A stretch of DNA of 23,938 bases. It comes from a virus. Numbering within the stretch: the stretch's first letter is position 1; every line of letters begins with the position of its first letter. Where the stretch lies: positions 1-23,938 of the IMG/VR virus record IMGVR_UViG_3300033064_002044; one strand, given 5' to 3'. A model generated the notes under the pieces. The model saw only the letters and a program-made list of their open reading frames with translations, was not told where the DNA came from and made no database searches. The translations under genes and the position numbers were made by a program. This document shows, piece after piece, positions 1,082 through 23,938 of the stretch.

Positions 1082-1395
1082 CAACTTTTACCACCACCAT
1101 CACCCGTATGTACACCCTACAACAACCAGACCCTAACTATGTGGTTAACGCCATCTGGCAAGTCACAGGCGTAGACGGCAGCAACACCGCCAGCATCGGT
1201 GGCAACACGCAGTTCAACTCTGCTGACCAAGAAGGCCCAGTGACCCCATACGCTGACCTGACAGAGGCAGTTGTTCTGTCTTGGATTCCTGAGTCAGCCA
1301 TTACAAGCGCACAGCAGTGTGTGCAGGGACAAATTGACAGCATGATTACACCGCCTGTGTCACCTCAAAATACACCGTTGCCGTGGAGTGCGTAA
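1078..1395 (+). CDS. Small phage protein, DUF-type, tail region
   Basis: This is a 105-residue protein. I chose the ATG at 1078 because it overlaps the previous stop as ATGA; the longer in-frame extension upstream lies inside the preceding gene. It has a Thr-rich start, a central 'TPYADLTEAVVLSWI' and the ending 'QIDSMITPPVSPQNTPLPW'. I recognise these features from a widespread family of short proteins (possibly DUF7936) beside fibre genes in environmental phages. There is no catalytic motif or membrane segment. Its stop overlaps the next start (TAATG). Function is unknown; association with the tail fibre is inferred from position. Confidence 0.7.
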   Translation: MTTFTTTITRMYTLQQPDPNYVVNAIWQVTGVDGSNTASIGGNTQFNSADQEGPVTPYADLTEAVVLSWIPESAITSAQQCVQGQIDSMITPPVSPQNTPLPWSA

Positions 1396-1556
1396 TGATT
1401 AAAATTGATGGAAAGACGATTGATGTAACAATGTTTAAAACATGGGGCGAATTAATAAAAATTCATTCAAACAGTTTTATTGAGCAACGCAAAGATGGAG
1501 TAACGAGTCGCATTACATGCGCCGTTAAAAATCAAGATGCAAAGGAGGCCAAATGA
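1395..1556 (+). CDS. Hypothetical 53-aa protein
   Basis: A short frame begins with ATG overlapping the preceding TAA (TAATG) and ends in a TGA overlapping the next gene's ATG (ATGA). The product is 53 residues: MIKIDGKTIDVTMFKTW at the start, a central amphipathic stretch and a Lys-rich tail (NQDAKEAK). Overlap at both ends and the absence of any other reading in this stretch support it as a real gene. It is not recognised. An AAAGGAGG ribosome site for the following gene lies within its last codons. Confidence 0.6.
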   Translation: MIKIDGKTIDVTMFKTWGELIKIHSNSFIEQRKDGVTSRITCAVKNQDAKEAK

Positions 1557-1735
1557 ACCTGCTTAAAAGCAAAACAGTCTGGTATGCGATTATCATCGCA
1601 GTCCTCAGTATCGTTCAGGGCTATATCAACCTGCTGCCGATGACGCCGGTAGCACAGATGTTTGTCGGGATTACGATCTCGGTGGGCATCGTTATTTTGC
1701 GTCTTCTCACCACTCAACCCATAGGGGATAAGTAA
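1553..1735 (+). CDS. Small membrane protein, possible holin accessory
   Basis: This 60-residue protein has two hydrophobic segments: residues about 9-28 ('VWYAIIIAVLSIVQGYINLL') and about 34-54 ('AQMFVGITISVGIVILRLL'). Charged ends are MNLLKSK and TQPIGDK. It has a strong ribosome site (AAAGGAGG, about five bases before ATG). It sits in a run of small genes leading to the holin and endolysin, so a holin-like, antiholin or lysis-accessory role is plausible but not shown. Similar short proteins are sometimes annotated only as phage membrane proteins. Its stop overlaps the next ATG (TAATG). Confidence 0.7.
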   Translation: MNLLKSKTVWYAIIIAVLSIVQGYINLLPMTPVAQMFVGITISVGIVILRLLTTQPIGDK

Positions 1736-17641: not shown

Positions 17642-17843
17642 TTTTTGTCTTCCAAGTTTCCCAGCTGATGATTGAATTGCGTGCAATTGAACGCTGAACG
17701 ATAGCGGTATAAGCGTTGTCTTTGCTGTCAAGGAATTCTTCGAACACCTCACGCGACTTCAAAAAAACGTCGTGCTTTTCGGCTTGTGATTTGATAGGCC
17801 AGATCGCCCCGTCTGACGTTTGATACGCGGTGATGGGCTTCAT
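17625..17843 (-). CDS. Small phage early protein, unknown
   Basis: This is a 72-residue protein starting MKPITAYQTSDGAIW. The chosen ATG overlaps the stop of the nuclease gene as ATGA, which decides it over a longer upstream reading. The N-terminus 'YQTSDGAIWPIKSQAEKHD' is a pattern I recognise from short phage proteins of unknown function that describe a beta hairpin and helix. It ends in a basic tail (KTKNGKRT). No catalytic residues are seen. It lies between the nuclease and the terminal gene of the operon. Confidence 0.6.
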   Translation of the reverse strand: MKPITAYQTSDGAIWPIKSQAEKHDVFLKSREVFEEFLDSKDNAYTAIVQRSIARNSIISWETWKTKNGKRT

Positions 17844-18598
17844 GAGTGCTTGTTCTTTAACTGCCAGAACTTGAGCAGAGCACAAAACATGCCCCAGCCG
17901 CGGTCGAGGTCTTCCTTCTCCCATTCGAGCACAACGGTCAGCCCGGGGTGCGTGCGGGACACGAAGACGTTTGCGCACCTTGCCTCAGGCTGGCCAATGC
18001 CGACGCGGTAGGCGGCGAGCTGCATCAGGTGCTCGTCATACGCCGCGATCGAATCGTCAGGGCCGAACTCTTTCGACTTGATGTCAAGGACAAAGCCCGC
18101 GGTGTGCAGGTCAAGTTTTCCGCCGAACCCGAGGTCGTGACAGAACGAGCGCTCCGACACCCAGCCGTGCTCACCGAACGTGGCGCGGATCTTCTCAACG
18201 CAGCCCTTGACGTGCGCCTGATGCTTATCGACAACCGTGCCCTCGTAAAAGCCCTGAACCGCGGTGTGTATCTCAGTTCCCGCATCCGCCGCCGATCGAC
18301 CCTGTTCTTTAGAATCAAAGATTATTCGATCGATGTATTCTTTCTCAGGTTCGTTGGGGCGACGGAGAAGGGTCAGCGTCGCAAGCAGCACCTGTTTCTG
18401 CATCCAAGCGATCAGGGCGGGCTTTGCCGTTGCGCCGAGGATGGTGGTGACGCTGGGCACCAGATTCATTTTGCGTGCGTCTCGGAGCGTTGTGGCGCGT
18501 TGTGAGCCGTTCTTAGCCTCAACGGTATACATCGGCAGCCCCTCACGGGAATACCAGTGATTTGACTCACTAGCGCGGGGTTCTTTTGCGGTGATCAT
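17840..18598 (-). CDS. PD-(D/E)XK nuclease, RecB/Cas4-like exonuclease
   Basis: This 252-residue protein carries the RecB-family nuclease core: 'GTEIH' (107-111), 'GGKLDL' with Asp163, 'LDIKSK' with Asp172 and Lys174, and 'QLAAY' (Gln193...Tyr197). These are metal-binding and catalytic positions of PD-(D/E)XK enzymes. The four cysteines are not arranged as in Cas4, so an iron-sulphur cluster is unlikely. 'LVPSVTTIL' near residue 46 is typical of phage members of this family. It probably resects DNA ends for phage recombination or degrades DNA. The start has a GGAGAAAATATTC ribosome site and overlaps the upstream stop as ATGA. It lies in the same operon as an SSB-like protein. Confidence 0.8.
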   Translation of the reverse strand: MITAKEPRASESNHWYSREGLPMYTVEAKNGSQRATTLRDARKMNLVPSVTTILGATAKPALIAWMQKQVLLATLTLLRRPNEPEKEYIDRIIFDSKEQGRSAADAGTEIHTAVQGFYEGTVVDKHQAHVKGCVEKIRATFGEHGWVSERSFCHDLGFGGKLDLHTAGFVLDIKSKEFGPDDSIAAYDEHLMQLAAYRVGIGQPEARCANVFVSRTHPGLTVVLEWEKEDLDRGWGMFCALLKFWQLKNKHS

Positions 18599-19444: not shown

Positions 19445-20098
19445 TCAAAAAGGAATATCGTCAGCCATATCGGCAAACGCATCCGCTGGTTTTTCACTCT
19501 GATGCGACTTAGCCTTGCCGCCGCTGTCCTTGCCCTGCCATTCGGGCGATGACTTAATCTTTTCCTGAAGGAACTGGCTAAACGTGTCGAACAGCTGCAT
19601 GTCGGGGTTGTCGATCGAGAACATCGCAACCTTGTTGTGCCCCTCGGGCAAGCCGGCGGAACGGATTGTTTTTGGCACCGGGTTGATGTTTTTGATGTTG
19701 GTGTATTCCTTGCCGTTATTGCCGGCGTCTCTGGCCACCGTAATCATTGCCCACACGCCGAGGACGTTCTTCAGCTCAAACCCTTTGCGCTCCTCTTCCG
19801 TGAAGTCGCGACCGCGCCAAGCGGATAGGTCTTTGCGCAAGGTTGCCTTCTCTGCAAGCGACAGGGTAAAGTTCTTGCTAATCGACATTGGCTCGTTTTT
19901 ATTCGTCACGATTGGTTTGCCGTCGTCATCTTCGCCGTGCACCTCAAACTGAATCATGATCTTCCTGAGGTATTTGATCTGCCCCTGATACTCGGACTTT
20001 TGCGTGCCAAGATCGACGATGCGATAGCACCGCGCAAGATGCATCCCAGTTGGGACTGGGGTAAAGTTGCTCTCGCCTTCTTTCGCTATAATGCTCAT
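19445..20098 (-). CDS. Putative single-stranded DNA-binding protein
   Basis: This is a 217-residue protein starting MSIIAKEGES, chosen for its AAGGAGA ribosome site and ATGA overlap with the small gene upstream. The body is beta-rich ('MHLARCYRIVDLGTQKS', 'KIMIQFEVHGEDDDGKP', 'VLGVWAMITVARDAG'), like an OB-fold. The end is a flexible Gly/Lys-rich tail finishing 'ADMADDIPF', the acidic-hydrophobic tip that lets SSBs recruit partners. The family itself was not recognised by signature, so the call rests on fold look and C-terminal tip. With the nuclease downstream it may support replication and strand annealing. Confidence 0.65.
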   Translation of the reverse strand: MSIIAKEGESNFTPVPTGMHLARCYRIVDLGTQKSEYQGQIKYLRKIMIQFEVHGEDDDGKPIVTNKNEPMSISKNFTLSLAEKATLRKDLSAWRGRDFTEEERKGFELKNVLGVWAMITVARDAGNNGKEYTNIKNINPVPKTIRSAGLPEGHNKVAMFSIDNPDMQLFDTFSQFLQEKIKSSPEWQGKDSGGKAKSHQSEKPADAFADMADDIPF

Positions 20099-20396: not shown

Positions 20397-20606
20397 ATGA
20401 CATTGCAGGAATATTTTGAAGGTAAGCCCCGCGGGGCGAAGGCTGATTTCGCGTTGAAGATGGGCATTACCCGAACGTGGCTGTCGCTCATCATCAGCGG
20501 CCGTCACTCGCCCAGCGCTCACCTGACTGTTGAGATCCACCATGCCACACGCGGGCAGGTGTCCCGTGAAGACCTGCGGCCAGACCTGTTTGGGAGGGTC
20601 AAATGA
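20397..20606 (+). CDS. YdaS/Cro-like helix-turn-helix regulator
   Basis: This is a 69-residue protein starting MTLQEYFEGK, chosen over an upstream in-frame Met because of the CAAGGAGAGCAAC ribosome site. The helix-turn-helix is 'AKADFALKMGITRTWLSLII' (14-33). The ending 'EIHHATRGQVSREDLRPDLF' (46-65) is the hallmark of the YdaS-like family of Cro-type repressors ('...VTR.DLRPDIF'). It should bind DNA as a dimer and control the adjacent divergent promoters, much as Cro does. As first gene of the rightward operon its level would respond to that promoter (autoregulation inferred). No CI-like protein with a peptidase domain is in the window. Confidence 0.8.
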   Translation: MTLQEYFEGKPRGAKADFALKMGITRTWLSLIISGRHSPSAHLTVEIHHATRGQVSREDLRPDLFGRVK

Positions 20607-21232
20607 TTTGGTATAAATTTCATATCGGCGACTACCTGACGCACACGGTGCACTTAGCCGACGCGGAGGATCTTGCATACCGCCGACTACTTGACCTCTA
20701 CTACATGAGCGAGAAAGAAATCCCTCTTGATACCGAATCGGTTGCTCGTAAAATCCGCCTTGATTTGGACATAACCGAATTGGTTTTAGGTGAGTTTTTT
20801 GAAAAGACCGAAAAGGGATACTTTAACCATCGTTGTCATGTCGAAATCGCAAAATATCAGGCTCAGGTTGCGGTCAATCGACAGGTCGGAAAGCGAGGCG
20901 GCAGGCCGAAGAAAACCGAATCGGTAACCGAATCGAAACCGAAGGCAAACCCTAAGAAGATACAGATACAGAATATAAATACTTCGTCGAAGTTCGACGA
21001 GTTCTGGTCTTCGTGGCCATCATCGAAGCGTAAAGTGGCAAAGTCAGCGGTGTTATCGAAATGGAAAAAGCTTGGTCTTGACCGTATTGCGGACTCGATC
21101 ATCTCCAACGTCAATGTGTTGAAGGAGACTGACCAGTGGACGACGGGGTATGAGCCGGCACCGCTGACCTACGTCAACCAGCGCCGGTGGGAGGATGAGA
21201 CCACCGCGGCACCGAGCCGGAGGGTGTTGTGA
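20603..21232 (+). CDS. DUF1376 (YdaU-like) replication protein
   Basis: This 209-residue protein opens with 'MIWYKFHIGDYLTHTVHLAD' and 'EDLAYRRLLDLYYMSEKEIP', the DUF1376 signature of phage replication proteins. A basic linker ('GKRGGRPKK', about 97-105) leads to a C-terminal part: 'FDEFWSSWPSSKRKVAKSA', then 'APLTYVNQRRWED' (about 186-198). This part resembles helicase-loader or primosome domains in which phage proteins deliver the replicative helicase to the origin. It overlaps the regulator (ATGA) and the next gene (GTGA). Its neighbour downstream supplies the helicase two genes on, which supports a loader or origin-binding role; that role is inferred. Confidence 0.8.
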   Translation: MIWYKFHIGDYLTHTVHLADAEDLAYRRLLDLYYMSEKEIPLDTESVARKIRLDLDITELVLGEFFEKTEKGYFNHRCHVEIAKYQAQVAVNRQVGKRGGRPKKTESVTESKPKANPKKIQIQNINTSSKFDEFWSSWPSSKRKVAKSAVLSKWKKLGLDRIADSIISNVNVLKETDQWTTGYEPAPLTYVNQRRWEDETTAAPSRRVL

Positions 21233-21663
21233 GTCAGGTTGAGGTCTTCATATCGCGCCTCAATAAGGTGAAGGGCCGTAACGGGTCATGGACTGCCTGC
21301 TGCCCGTCGCACAAGGACGGGTCGCCGTCGTTGTCGATCCGTGAGGGGCAGGACGGTCGCGTGCTGGTGCACTGCTTTGCGGGGTGTAGCGTGCACGACG
21401 TTGTTGGGTCGGTAGGCATGAGCGTGAACGATCTGTTTCCGCCAGACGAGCGCCGACGTGAATACGGGCACAACAAGCCCGCGGTGAAGGCGTCGTTTTA
21501 TTCGTCTGACCTGATGCGGATTATTGGCTTTGAGTCTTTGGTGGTGCAGATTGCGGCGATCGACATGGCGAATGGTAAAAAATTGAGCGACACAGACCGC
21601 GGGCGGTTGACTGTTGCAACACAGCGAATACAGGAGGCAATGAGATATGGCAACGTTGATTGA
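21229..21663 (+). CDS. Stand-alone CHC2 zinc-binding primase domain
   Basis: This is a 144-residue protein with GTG start overlapping the previous TGA (GTGA) and a GGAGGG ribosome site. The N-terminal half is a CHC2-type zinc ribbon: C25-P-S-H28, then 'SPSLSI' and C49-x-x-x-C53 ('HCFAGCSVHDVV'). This is the DNA-reading part of DnaG-type primases. The usual catalytic TOPRIM domain is absent; the remaining 85 residues are helical ('SLVVQIAAIDMANGKK'). It may recognise priming sites for the host primase or for another protein, working with the helicase encoded next. The zinc ligands are visible; the function without TOPRIM is open. Confidence 0.85.
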   Translation: MSQVEVFISRLNKVKGRNGSWTACCPSHKDGSPSLSIREGQDGRVLVHCFAGCSVHDVVGSVGMSVNDLFPPDERRREYGHNKPAVKASFYSSDLMRIIGFESLVVQIAAIDMANGKKLSDTDRGRLTVATQRIQEAMRYGNVD

Positions 21664-22651
21664 AGAGCGGGCGCGTGAGCTGGACGAGGCGCGTAGGGTG
21701 CGACTGTTGCGGTCAGAGGACATCGACACCGAAAAATATTTGAAGGCCCACGACGTCACCCACAAGGTGAACGAGGCGACGACGTGGTTGGACGAGATGC
21801 AAGAGGAGCTGGTCAACCCGTCAGAGCGTGAGCGCGGGCAAGTGATGCCATGGCCGAAGACGCATAGCAGCTTTGCGTTCCGCCCGGGCGAGGTGACGAT
21901 CTACGCCGGCACCAACGGTAGCGGCAAGTCGATGGTTACTGGGCAGGTGGCGCTCGGTCTCGTGAAGCAGAAGCAGAAGGTTTGCATTGCTTCGTTTGAG
22001 ATGAAACCGAAGCGCAGTCTGTATCGCATGTTGCGCCAGTTCGGCGGGCAGAACCTTGACGTGCCGGCGTTTGAGAACAACGCCCAGCGGATCGGCGGAT
22101 ACATCTCGCGCTTTTCGAGCTTTGCGGCAGATCGTCTGTGGATGTATGACCAGCAGGGCACGACGTCGTCTAGGCAGGTGATTGCGATGTCGCGGTATTG
22201 CGCTGTCGAATTAGGCATCAAGCATGTGTTCATCGACAGCCTGATGAAGTGCGTGCCGGCCGAGGACGACTATAACGCGCAGAAGTATTTCGTTGATGAG
22301 CTGACCGCGCTGGCGCGTGACCACAGTATTCACGTTCACCTCGTGCACCATCTGGCCAAGCTGCAAACGGACGACCAGCTGCCGAGCAAGCGTGATGTGA
22401 AGGGATCTGGCGCGATTACTGACCAAGTCGATAACGTGCTGCTGGTTCATCGCAACAAGAAAAAGGAGCACAAGTTTCAGGCGGGGCAGGACGTGAGCGA
22501 CCTTGAGCCGGATGCGACGCTGATGTGTGAGAAGCAGCGTAACGGTGAAGCCGAGGAGTGGTATGGGCTTTGGTATAACCGCGAGTGCCAACAGTTTGTC
22601 GAGGCGCATGATTCATTGCCAATGTGCTTTGATGCCGCGGGTGCGTTTTGA
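21647..22651 (+). CDS. DnaB-like replicative helicase
   Basis: This 334-residue protein has a RecA-type ATPase core: Walker A 'GTNGSGKS' (88-95), Walker B 'HVFIDS' (193-198), a 'HLVHHLAK' strand (231-238) and the DnaB-type motif 'KGSGAITDQVDNVLLVHR' (252-269). It belongs with DnaB/T7 gp4/Twinkle helicases, hexameric motors that unwind DNA 5' to 3' at the fork. The N-terminal 70 residues are charged and helical and lack the DnaB N-terminal domain, so it is short for a DnaB. It overlaps the CHC2 gene by 17 bases, suggesting that the two act as a split primase-helicase. Confidence 0.85.
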   Translation: MATLIEERARELDEARRVRLLRSEDIDTEKYLKAHDVTHKVNEATTWLDEMQEELVNPSERERGQVMPWPKTHSSFAFRPGEVTIYAGTNGSGKSMVTGQVALGLVKQKQKVCIASFEMKPKRSLYRMLRQFGGQNLDVPAFENNAQRIGGYISRFSSFAADRLWMYDQQGTTSSRQVIAMSRYCAVELGIKHVFIDSLMKCVPAEDDYNAQKYFVDELTALARDHSIHVHLVHHLAKLQTDDQLPSKRDVKGSGAITDQVDNVLLVHRNKKKEHKFQAGQDVSDLEPDATLMCEKQRNGEAEEWYGLWYNRECQQFVEAHDSLPMCFDAAGAF

Positions 22652-22887
22652 TCGAAGGAAAGGGCGACGATGAGCACCGTCACCGGTGCCTTGTCCGATG
22701 GTTAATCCGTCGCAGAATTAATGACCGGGACGCGGCGCATCGGTGGCTTGCGGGGTATTACGACACTGAGAAAGTCAGGCACGTAAAGGGATGGAACGAC
22801 CTGCACCCGTCGTCGGTGTTAGAGCGTGACGTCAGAGATCAATGGGTAAAAGGGAACAGGGGCGAAGATGGAGACTGGCGTGAATGA
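22648..22887 (+). CDS. Small phage protein, replication operon
   Basis: This is a 79-residue, strongly charged protein with TTG start overlapping the helicase stop (TTGA). Features are 'HRCLVRWLIRRRINDRDAAH', 'KVRHVKGWNDLHPSSVLERD' and the end 'QWVKGNRGEDGDWRE'. I recognise the pattern from short proteins in replication modules of environmental phages but no function is known; the basic first half could bind nucleic acid. The next gene starts 20 bases before its stop. The TTG start is supported by overlap rather than by a strong ribosome site. Confidence 0.65.
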   Translation: MIEGKGDDEHRHRCLVRWLIRRRINDRDAAHRWLAGYYDTEKVRHVKGWNDLHPSSVLERDVRDQWVKGNRGEDGDWRE

Positions 22888-23230
22888 AATAATCTTACCG
22901 TGGCCGCCGAGCGTGAATCAATACTGGCGCATGTTTCAGAACAGGATGATCATCAGTAGAGAAGGGAGGACTTTTCGCGCAAAGGTAATGGAGCACATTT
23001 TGTTGCAGAAGGCGTTCACGCGTTATGAGGGCAAAATCAAAGTAACGATCGAGGCATGGCGACCGGATAACAGAAGGCGTGATCTGGATAACCTGTTGAA
23101 GGCAACGCTGGACGGATGCACTCATGCGGGCGTGTGGACTGACGATTCAAACATCGTTGACTTGCGAATTTACTGGTCAAAAGACAAGGCCGGCATTTTA
23201 AAATTGAAGATAGAGGAAGCAAATGAATAA
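22868..23230 (+). CDS. rusA: RusA-family Holliday junction resolvase
   Basis: This 120-residue endonuclease of the RusA family resolves four-way DNA junctions made during replication and recombination. Residues 11-20 ('PWPPSVNQYW') are the family's opening motif. 'RDLDNLLKATLDG' (71-83) places Asp72, Asp74 and Lys78 like the E. coli active-site Asp70, Asp72 and Lys76. 'TDDSNI' (91-96) supplies the third acidic residue. Length is normal. It could start at the ATG at 22868 or the in-frame GTG at 22880; I kept the ATG. It is coupled to the genes before and after by overlaps. In this phage it may debranch DNA before packaging. Confidence 0.9.
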   Translation: METGVNEIILPWPPSVNQYWRMFQNRMIISREGRTFRAKVMEHILLQKAFTRYEGKIKVTIEAWRPDNRRRDLDNLLKATLDGCTHAGVWTDDSNIVDLRIYWSKDKAGILKLKIEEANE

Positions 23231-23564
23231 TGACAGCGACGTGAAGAACCCAGAGCTTGCAATCGAATATATTTACAAGCACGGCAAGCGTTATGCAAAA
23301 GCAAAGGCCGACAGGATTTATCTGGAAGAGTATCGCAAGAGCTTGAAATCTTTAATCATGGGGCGTAGCCTTGAAAAGGCCGTCAACGCGCAAGAGCGTG
23401 AGGCTTACGGTGACCCCGAATACATTAAGCTGTTGAACGGGCTGCGTGAGGCAATTGAAATTGAGGAGGAGATTCGTTGGGGGCTGGTGGCAGCACAGGC
23501 CCGTATCGAAGTGTGGCGTTCGATGGAAGCAACCAACCGTGCCGAAGGGAGGGCAACGTTGTGA
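23223..23564 (+). CDS. Unknown helical phage protein
   Basis: This is a 113-residue charged, helical protein. It has 'ELAIEYIYKHGKRYAKAKAD', then 'EYRKSLKSLIMG' and 'REAYGDPEYIKLLNGLREAI', ending in 'EEEIRWGLVAAQARIEVWRS'. The pattern of short helices with a central 'EREAYGDPEYI' turn is common to small proteins encoded next to resolvase genes in environmental phages. No catalytic motif or membrane segment is seen. It overlaps the resolvase end by 8 bases and its TGA overlaps the next GTG. A recombination or packaging accessory role is only suggested by place. Confidence 0.65.
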   Translation: MNNDSDVKNPELAIEYIYKHGKRYAKAKADRIYLEEYRKSLKSLIMGRSLEKAVNAQEREAYGDPEYIKLLNGLREAIEIEEEIRWGLVAAQARIEVWRSMEATNRAEGRATL

Positions 23565-23938
23565 GTCCACTCATTCAAGAGCTGGCGTCTCTGTCACCTG
23601 ATACTGCTGTTGAGTATCACTGGTTTGACATGACCGCCGCATACAAAAAAGAGCAAGTGGTTGATCACGCTGTTCTCGATTGCCCTTTGCCTTTTCCACA
23701 AACCGCATTAGTTTGCGCTTTTGAAAATAAAAAAGCGTTGATTGTATTGGGCCGTAGTGGTGAAGCAACGGCCGTATGCGCGTGGCTATTAGAAAAGACA
23801 TTTTATAAATCGACGATACCATTTATTTATGTGTCAACGCCGGACGGTGTGAGAGTTCGTCACGATGACGGCACTGAATTTGACTACCGCACCAGCACTG
23901 CGGTCGGCGTGTTAGCTTTCGTTAGCTCATTTCTTAAC
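23561..23938 (+). CDS. Unknown protein, 3' end outside window
   Basis: The frame opens with GTG overlapping the preceding TGA (GTGA), with a GGGAGGG ribosome site upstream, and stays open for 126 codons to the last base. The visible part has beta-alpha-beta text: 'TAVEYHWFDMTAAYK', 'ALVCAFENKKALIVLGR', 'AVCAWLLEKTFYK' and 'IPFIYVSTPDGVRVRHDDG'. No family is recognised. A frame on the opposite strand covers part of it but has no operon partner. It is more AT-rich than the upstream genes. Confidence 0.65.
   Translation, partial: MSPLIQELASLSPDTAVEYHWFDMTAAYKKEQVVDHAVLDCPLPFPQTALVCAFENKKALIVLGRSGEATAVCAWLLEKTFYKSTIPFIYVSTPDGVRVRHDDGTEFDYRTSTAVGVLAFVSSFLN

Follow-up and report, generated by a model that had tools for sequence, protein, structure and literature searches.

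A stand-alone CHC2 zinc-ribbon protein paired with a Twinkle-type helicase in freshwater phages that probably borrow the host primase

We analyzed a virus record of 23,938 bases (IMG/VR record IMGVR_UViG_3300033064_002044), the whole of which is called the window here. The record is a fragment in which overlapping plus-strand genes for a DUF1376 protein, a CHC2 zinc-ribbon protein and a helicase stand in a row, with a RusA gene after them. The virus, a member of a freshwater group of bacterial viruses, probably borrows the host primase to start its DNA copies, a dependence that rests on gene content. Sequence comparison indicates that the separate CHC2 gene is a family trait and not a truncation. 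The best explanation, which we hold with about equal measures of belief and doubt, is a host-primase-dependent replication operon in which the phage would use host DnaG and the CHC2 protein would act as a helicase-docked adaptor that reads the template for DnaG. The two central genes are:

21229..21663, plus strand: CHC2 zinc-ribbon protein, 144 amino acids (aa), GTG start, ligands C25, H28, C49 and C53, C-terminal helical hairpin
21647..22651, plus strand: DnaB_C/Twinkle-type helicase motor, 334 aa, short N-terminus (PHROG_5482)

The two open reading frames (ORFs) overlap by 17 nucleotides (nt) in the window, and their pairing is kept throughout the group. A helicase scan, in which 593 of 600 candidate stretches encode a relative, gave the best 80 viral loci at 62–92% identity. 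A separate CHC2 ORF of about 144 aa lies upstream of and overlaps the helicase in 80 of 82 loci, comprising 78 of the 80 listed viral loci, the window and a Limnohabitans metagenome-assembled genome (MAG; L084); the contigs of the two loci lacking it (L042 and L071) begin at the helicase or no more than about 75 bases from it. The sequence-only reading had described the zinc ribbon as intact at C25, H28, C49 and C53; these residues are correct, and all four ligands are invariant in 31/31 representatives, as are several residues of the hairpin. Complete CHC2 copies that were read measure 139–147 aa. Compared with its nearest relative, the window has a ratio of nonsynonymous to synonymous substitution rates (dN/dS) of ~0.09 for CHC2 (0.055/0.63) and ~0.05 for the helicase, and the CHC2 pairwise median is 0.16 (1136 non-independent pairs, dS 0.2–1.5). 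Truncation or assembly error was rejected on these grounds: the overlapping pair is kept across loci, the ligands do not vary and dN/dS is low.

The zinc ribbon is of the DnaG-type CHC2 kind with four ligands. Pfam Zn_ribbon_DnaG (PF01807) aligns with residues 12–56 (E = 5.8e-5, 23.3 bits, slightly below the curated cut-off of 24.9), and PHROG_6088, annotated ‘DNA primase’, matches residues 5–78 (E = 2.5e-13). The structure model (predicted local distance difference test, pLDDT, 86.3; predicted template modeling score, pTM, 0.73) comprises a small beta domain holding the ligands and then a two-helix hairpin, with helices at about residues 88–114 and 121–140; as previously proposed, the 144-aa chain ends before any catalytic domain. 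Its top match in the PDB is the DnaG zinc domain 1d0q (E = 0.12, probability 0.90, not significant). A PDB sequence search returned the same entry at E = 0.36 with a common CP.H....PS pattern, behind an unrelated enzyme at 0.072. Nine viral models (BFVD) matched at E = 0.001 or better; two are unnamed, and the others bear the names of primases, TOPRIM proteins, a helicase and a short phiC31 ORF. Related zinc domains are also found in TOPRIM-bearing proteins, namely the phiC31 type, a 310-aa CHC2–TOPRIM protein and the BFVD matches. The earlier suggestion that TOPRIM-fused homologues might expose this copy as a truncation is borne out only in their existence: TOPRIM may possibly have been lost from the CHC2 lineage long ago, yet the unfused form holds steady throughout the group.

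The overlapping gene had been read as a DnaB-like motor and nothing more, which agrees with a DnaB_C assignment by Pfam (E = 9e-19); no part of the window matched TOPRIM. The helicase model (pLDDT 88.4), which has a short, helical N-terminus, matches the motors of Twinkle, DnaB and T7 gp4, the best PDB match being Twinkle (8e2l, E = 2.5e-19), with T7 gp4D (1e0j) at E = 4.3e-16. Fold and family together identify a RecA-type hexameric motor of the T7 gp4/Twinkle class. No match to the DnaB N-terminal domain was found in the window helicase, which is therefore not a full DnaB replicative helicase.

The sequence-only reading had asked whether a full primase lies elsewhere in the phage. None was found in related virus records, the window's own record being a fragment. 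Six-frame searches of 25 such records (E 0.1) gave no match to Toprim_2, Toprim_3, Prim-Pol or DnaG_N; among 14 control genomes these were positive in 14, 9, 2 and 10, respectively. Toprim_2 was likewise not found in 12 further virus records, four of which also lacked Toprim_3. Of four named phages only ES18 was positive for Toprim_2, with Phipami28, Venkman and ctXG6705 negative, and each of three host genomes carried it once, in frames of 496–689 aa taken as dnaG. A sub-threshold Toprim signal in one record (G021, 12.5 bits) was rejected as a hidden TOPRIM: the ORF (1132–1602, minus strand, 156 aa), located between the exonuclease-like and SSB-like genes, has no Pfam TOPRIM match, only sub-threshold DUF5843 and rve, and by eye the look of a PD-(D/E)XK nuclease. 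Three of the 25 records (G006, G014 and G021; 52.6–53.8 kb) have end repeats of 123–127 bases, the k-mer size, and are on that basis taken to be complete circular assemblies. In G006, 58 of 61 ORFs of at least 75 aa were scanned, three that cross the cut or the record end being left out; the 21 Pfam families matched at E 0.001 include neither a primase catalytic domain nor a polymerase. A PHROGs scan of the same ORFs yielded, among the 25 of 65 families listed, PHROG_239 ‘primase/helicase’ as the sole primase name, and in the window this family matches the motor. DNA_pol_A, the sole polymerase family searched by whole record, is absent from 20 virus records, as is the DnaB N-terminal domain (PF00772; 0/20, with 10/14 control genomes positive). 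At the sequence level, these relatives have their own helicase, initiator and SSB-like protein and no recognized DnaG_N/TOPRIM core or A-family polymerase, that is, a helicase of their own with neither primase nor polymerase, so that use of host DnaG and DNA polymerase III (Pol III) is the natural reading.

Two further genes enter the proposed mechanism:

20603..21232, plus strand: DUF1376 protein, likely a replication initiator or primosomal protein (Pfam 1.2e-20; PHROG_9327 primosomal protein, 5.9e-30)
19445..20098, minus strand: SSB-like protein, a name assigned by inference (PHROG_862, unknown function), C-terminal DMADDIPF, start taken at MSIIAKEG

The DUF1376 initiator would open the origin and the phage helicase would load, after which host Pol III and host DnaG would copy the phage DNA. 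With less certainty, the helical hairpin of the CHC2 protein may bind the helicase ring, the zinc ribbon may be presented to the single-stranded lagging-strand template, and the protein may serve the host DnaG catalytic domain in trans, by recognizing the template or by tethering. What the sequences show directly is which parts are present and that they are conserved; CHC2 docking, DNA reading and DnaG recruitment we infer. A second DnaG dock could be the SSB-like protein, through its DDIPF tip. This protein has no Pfam match and was found in 58 of 81 loci, with 49 complete C-termini, which resemble the bacterial SSB tip: 33 end in DDIPF and 44 in all fit [DSE]D[IVLC]PF, while the rest end in NLPF or GPPF (3) or carry an extra residue after PF (2). 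A longer ending, DDMDDDIPF, recurs in 27 of the 49. We propose the adaptor role on the following precedents. In plant Twinkle, priming is reported to persist when the zinc and TOPRIM domains are on separate molecules, and the same source says so of T7 (PMC10557236); the SPP1 helicase G40P is described as acting with Bacillus subtilis host DnaG (PMC6370340); and the C-terminus of Escherichia coli SSB is stated to bind DnaG and chi (PMC6783573). A DnaB relative reduced to its RecA core can, by one account, unwind DNA (PMC4523182). The earlier idea that the zinc protein may steer host DnaG is still live.

The origin of the pair was examined through the relatives of its motor. In 23 loci of genome contigs (L085–L105, L107 and L108), mostly Burkholderiales by title, a lone helicase of ~300–350 aa is encoded, those of L105 and L107 being incomplete. 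Most of these loci carry, in the CHC2 position, a different gene of ~120 aa that is unlike CHC2 by eye. Four such genes upstream of the helicase in L085–L104 (for example L092:9627–10010 and L087:9643–10014) were scanned and none matched a PHROG; the ~120-aa product is a possible alternative helicase partner. No full-length CHC2 was found in 25 lone-helicase loci (the 23 genome contigs and two phages, up to ~10 kb per side). Partial CHC2 matches in L086, L088, L089, L092 and L093 (up to 62 aa, E = 2.5e-4 to 7e-3) all lie on the strand that does not encode the helicase and were taken as chance. In four loci (L106 and L109–L111) and in lambdoid phages such as ES18, TOPRIM is fused to the motor, and the fused proteins that were read showed no CHC2 match or ligand pattern. 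A motor tree was built from 45 chosen sequences; in it, the clade that holds the window (12 rows, 100/100) is nested among lone-helicase rows (19-row set, 98/94; 27-row set, 97/93), and ten TOPRIM-fused rows fall outside with weaker support (92/98, branch not starred). Several branches are long, the lone helicases of Venkman and ctXG6705 lie outside the main lone group, two CHC2-paired motors (L259 and L266) are placed elsewhere, and each label needs two or three changes. The most economical reading of the window clade is that a CHC2 partner was added to a lone helicase, with repeated loss as the alternative. Because it is nested in lone helicases without CHC2, with the TOPRIM-fused relatives outside, the term ‘split primase-helicase’ of the sequence-only reading does not fit, and ‘stand-alone CHC2 helicase partner, host primase inferred’ is better suited.

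Proteins of about 140 aa with a CHC2 ribbon, then a helical hairpin and no TOPRIM, the trait by which we propose to group them with the window protein, also occur elsewhere. The order to which the Limnohabitans MAG belongs, which we take to be Burkholderiales, was searched with a CHC2 profile (A1); of its 399 genomes, 22 gave matches at E 1e-6, 28 in total. The match reaches the hairpin (position 137 or beyond) in 18 of the 399, the MAG included, and covers the zinc part only in G211, G170, G409 and G423. Twenty of the 28 matches were examined, 19 reaching the hairpin plus that of G211; those left out were the MAG, G112, G170, G409, G423 and three weaker ones of G179. The 20 proteins are 33–49% identical to the window CHC2 over 81–145 columns, and in each locus the next ORF starts before the CHC2 stop (overlap 4–115 nt, taking the longest-ORF start). 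By best Pfam match this ORF is AAA_25 in nine loci, DUF3987 in six, and DnaB_C, DUF3631 and D5_N in one each, with a sub-cut-off AAA_16 and one lacking Pfam assignment making up the remainder. In 18 of the 20 related loci, as in the window, the gene that the CHC2-hairpin gene overlaps codes for a replicative-type ATPase, and such overlap with ATPase genes of several families is expected of a helicase partner. No Toprim_2 was found near the 20 loci, many of which are on short contigs that show their surroundings only in part; where the 22 genomes do have a match, it is on a contig other than those of the 20 loci or at a distance of hundreds of kb. Outside the 20, G170:C97 is a CHC2–TOPRIM protein and G179:C159 combines a CHC2 match with a sub-threshold Toprim_2 match in one frame. 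Among four upstream ORFs tested, an AlpA-type regulator was found at the curated cut-off in two and weakly in a third, and the related loci appear to be mobile elements. We tentatively suggest, with more doubt than confidence, that stand-alone CHC2-hairpin proteins are widespread trans-acting primase zinc subunits, each docking on its element's ATPase (DnaB/Twinkle-type, AAA_25, DUF3987, DUF3631 or D5) and lending template reading to the host DnaG core.

Several observations weigh against the adaptor proposal. DnaG normally docks on the N-terminal domain of DnaB, and the window helicase lacks this usual dock. A VIA-align search with the CHC2 model gave nothing at Z of 5 or above, and nothing that it listed was specifically related to the hairpin. 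Close helicase relatives have no CHC2 gene in the available stretch, so this helicase type does not require CHC2. One or more zinc ligands are lost in 3 of the 20 related proteins (L258, L261 and L267) while the hairpin remains alignable, so that zinc is not universal among CHC2-hairpin proteins. At one locus (G353), a Toprim_3 protein is encoded ~15 kb away. The Prim-Pol control was weak (2/14 genomes) and other primase families lay beyond the search, which leaves room for an unrecognized primase.

The strongest rival, though an unlikely one, casts the CHC2 protein as a helicase loader or single-stranded-DNA-binding helper with no priming role, host DnaG priming unaided. CHC2 genes do adjoin and overlap ATPases of several kinds, and the ~120-aa gene that takes the CHC2 position in many lone-helicase loci looks as if small partners were exchangeable; against this, the ribbon is primase-type CHC2 by PHROG and, below cut-off, by Pfam, and has the CP.H....PS pattern in common with 1d0q (E = 0.36). 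We regard as improbable that a catalytic part is present and unrecognized, either as an unknown primase fold in a phage gene or as a small protein that confers priming ability on a polymerase, as MP is reported to do for CCPol in SCCmec (PMC7581432). Several conserved replication-side ORFs do lack a family, whereas Toprim_2, Toprim_3, Prim-Pol and DnaG_N were negative in the virus records searched, with one sub-threshold Toprim signal devoid of Pfam support, and the replication-side ORFs of G006 that are at least 150 aa long and have relatives in six or more of seven other records are all assigned save the SSB-like protein (the exonuclease by PHROG only). Less probable again is a takeover factor that keeps host DnaG from the host fork by blocking or diverting it: a zinc domain alone could conceivably compete for template or DnaG partners, but the CHC2 gene overlaps the helicase gene across the group and likewise in related loci, an arrangement more in keeping with a component of the replisome than with an inhibitor. 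That the protein is a degraded leftover of a CHC2–TOPRIM primase, proteins of which kind do occur in related settings, is very hard to credit given ligands invariant in 31/31 copies, low dN/dS, a length held at 139–147 aa and a conserved extra hairpin.

Known systems resemble the pair in parts. T7 gp4 and Twinkle combine a zinc ribbon with the same motor fold behind a short N-terminus; in contrast, the window encodes two polypeptides instead of one chain, no TOPRIM was found in its phage group, and the T7 ligands are Cys4 instead of CHC2. The ES18-type lambdoid TOPRIM-helicases have a homologous motor, with a lambda O-like replication gene upstream and one small gene between, but their TOPRIM is fused to the motor, and no CHC2 ligand pattern could be seen by eye in the N-terminal region of the six that were read, the reverse of the window. 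P22 gp12 is a phage helicase that works with host DnaG; it and SPP1 G40P have the N-terminal domain of a complete DnaB-type helicase, unlike the helicase of the window, and we know of no CHC2 helper for this type. The SPP1 type nevertheless joins a phage helicase to host DnaG, as we propose for the window (PMC6370340). Lone RecA-core DnaB-like helicases, found mostly in Burkholderiales prophage-like loci and in phage Venkman (which has no Toprim_2), share a motor without DnaB N-terminal domain or fused primase and differ in that no CHC2 gene was found in the available stretches; mycobacteriophage RecA-core proteins are described as of this type (PMC4523182). Pseudomonas phage Phipami28 encodes a 124-aa CHC2 protein, annotated ‘hypothetical protein’, that is 35% identical to residues 1–134 and overlaps the next gene, and its record has neither Toprim_2 nor Toprim_3; its CHC2 partner, however, is a DUF3631 protein and not a DnaB-type motor. 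That record (L002, PV029746.1) also bears ABC-transporter and dehydrogenase annotations, unusual for a phage, and may include host DNA. PHROG_360 ‘DNA primase’, a short family of 133 positions, matches the Phipami28 CHC2 protein (2.9e-4) and leaves the window protein unmatched at E 0.01. Phage AAS23 is reported to carry a CHC2-type primase/helicase and a DUF3987 helicase (PMC8004638). A paper on a Limnohabitans phage (PMC12195039) mentions neither primase nor helicase, and a full-text literature search of CC-licensed PMC articles listed no study of a stand-alone CHC2 protein.

The remaining annotated features of the window are:

17840..18598, minus strand: exonuclease-like protein (PHROG_298, E = 7.4e-8)
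22648..22887, plus strand: small ORF directly 3' of the helicase, no family match
22868..23230, plus strand: RusA Holliday-junction resolvase (Pfam E = 6.8e-17)

The G006 homologue of the exonuclease-like protein has a weak PDDEXK_1 match, below cut-off, and an ORF similar by eye to the small ORF is in the same place in G021. The ORF at the window end (23477–23938, plus strand) is similar by eye to a 222-aa ORF of G013 (26782–27450) that lies between DUF1376 and CHC2, so the gene seems to have moved within the module. The phage group may also encode a co-chaperonin: the complete relative G006 has one Cpn10 (GroES-like) Pfam match, assigned by sequence to 51319–51756 (L117 11319–11756).

The replication parts described here are known and their arrangement is new. 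The pair forms a compact two-protein system in which the zinc domain is physically apart from any catalytic core, and it bears on how the host primase is recruited by mobile elements that encode no primase of their own and whose helicase is without the usual DnaG dock. The main reason for interest is the wider protein class, since, under the proposal, many short CHC2 genes next to AAA_25, DUF3987 and DUF3631 genes would share a single function. If it is true, unrelated phages and islands would recruit the same host primase via one small interchangeable part.

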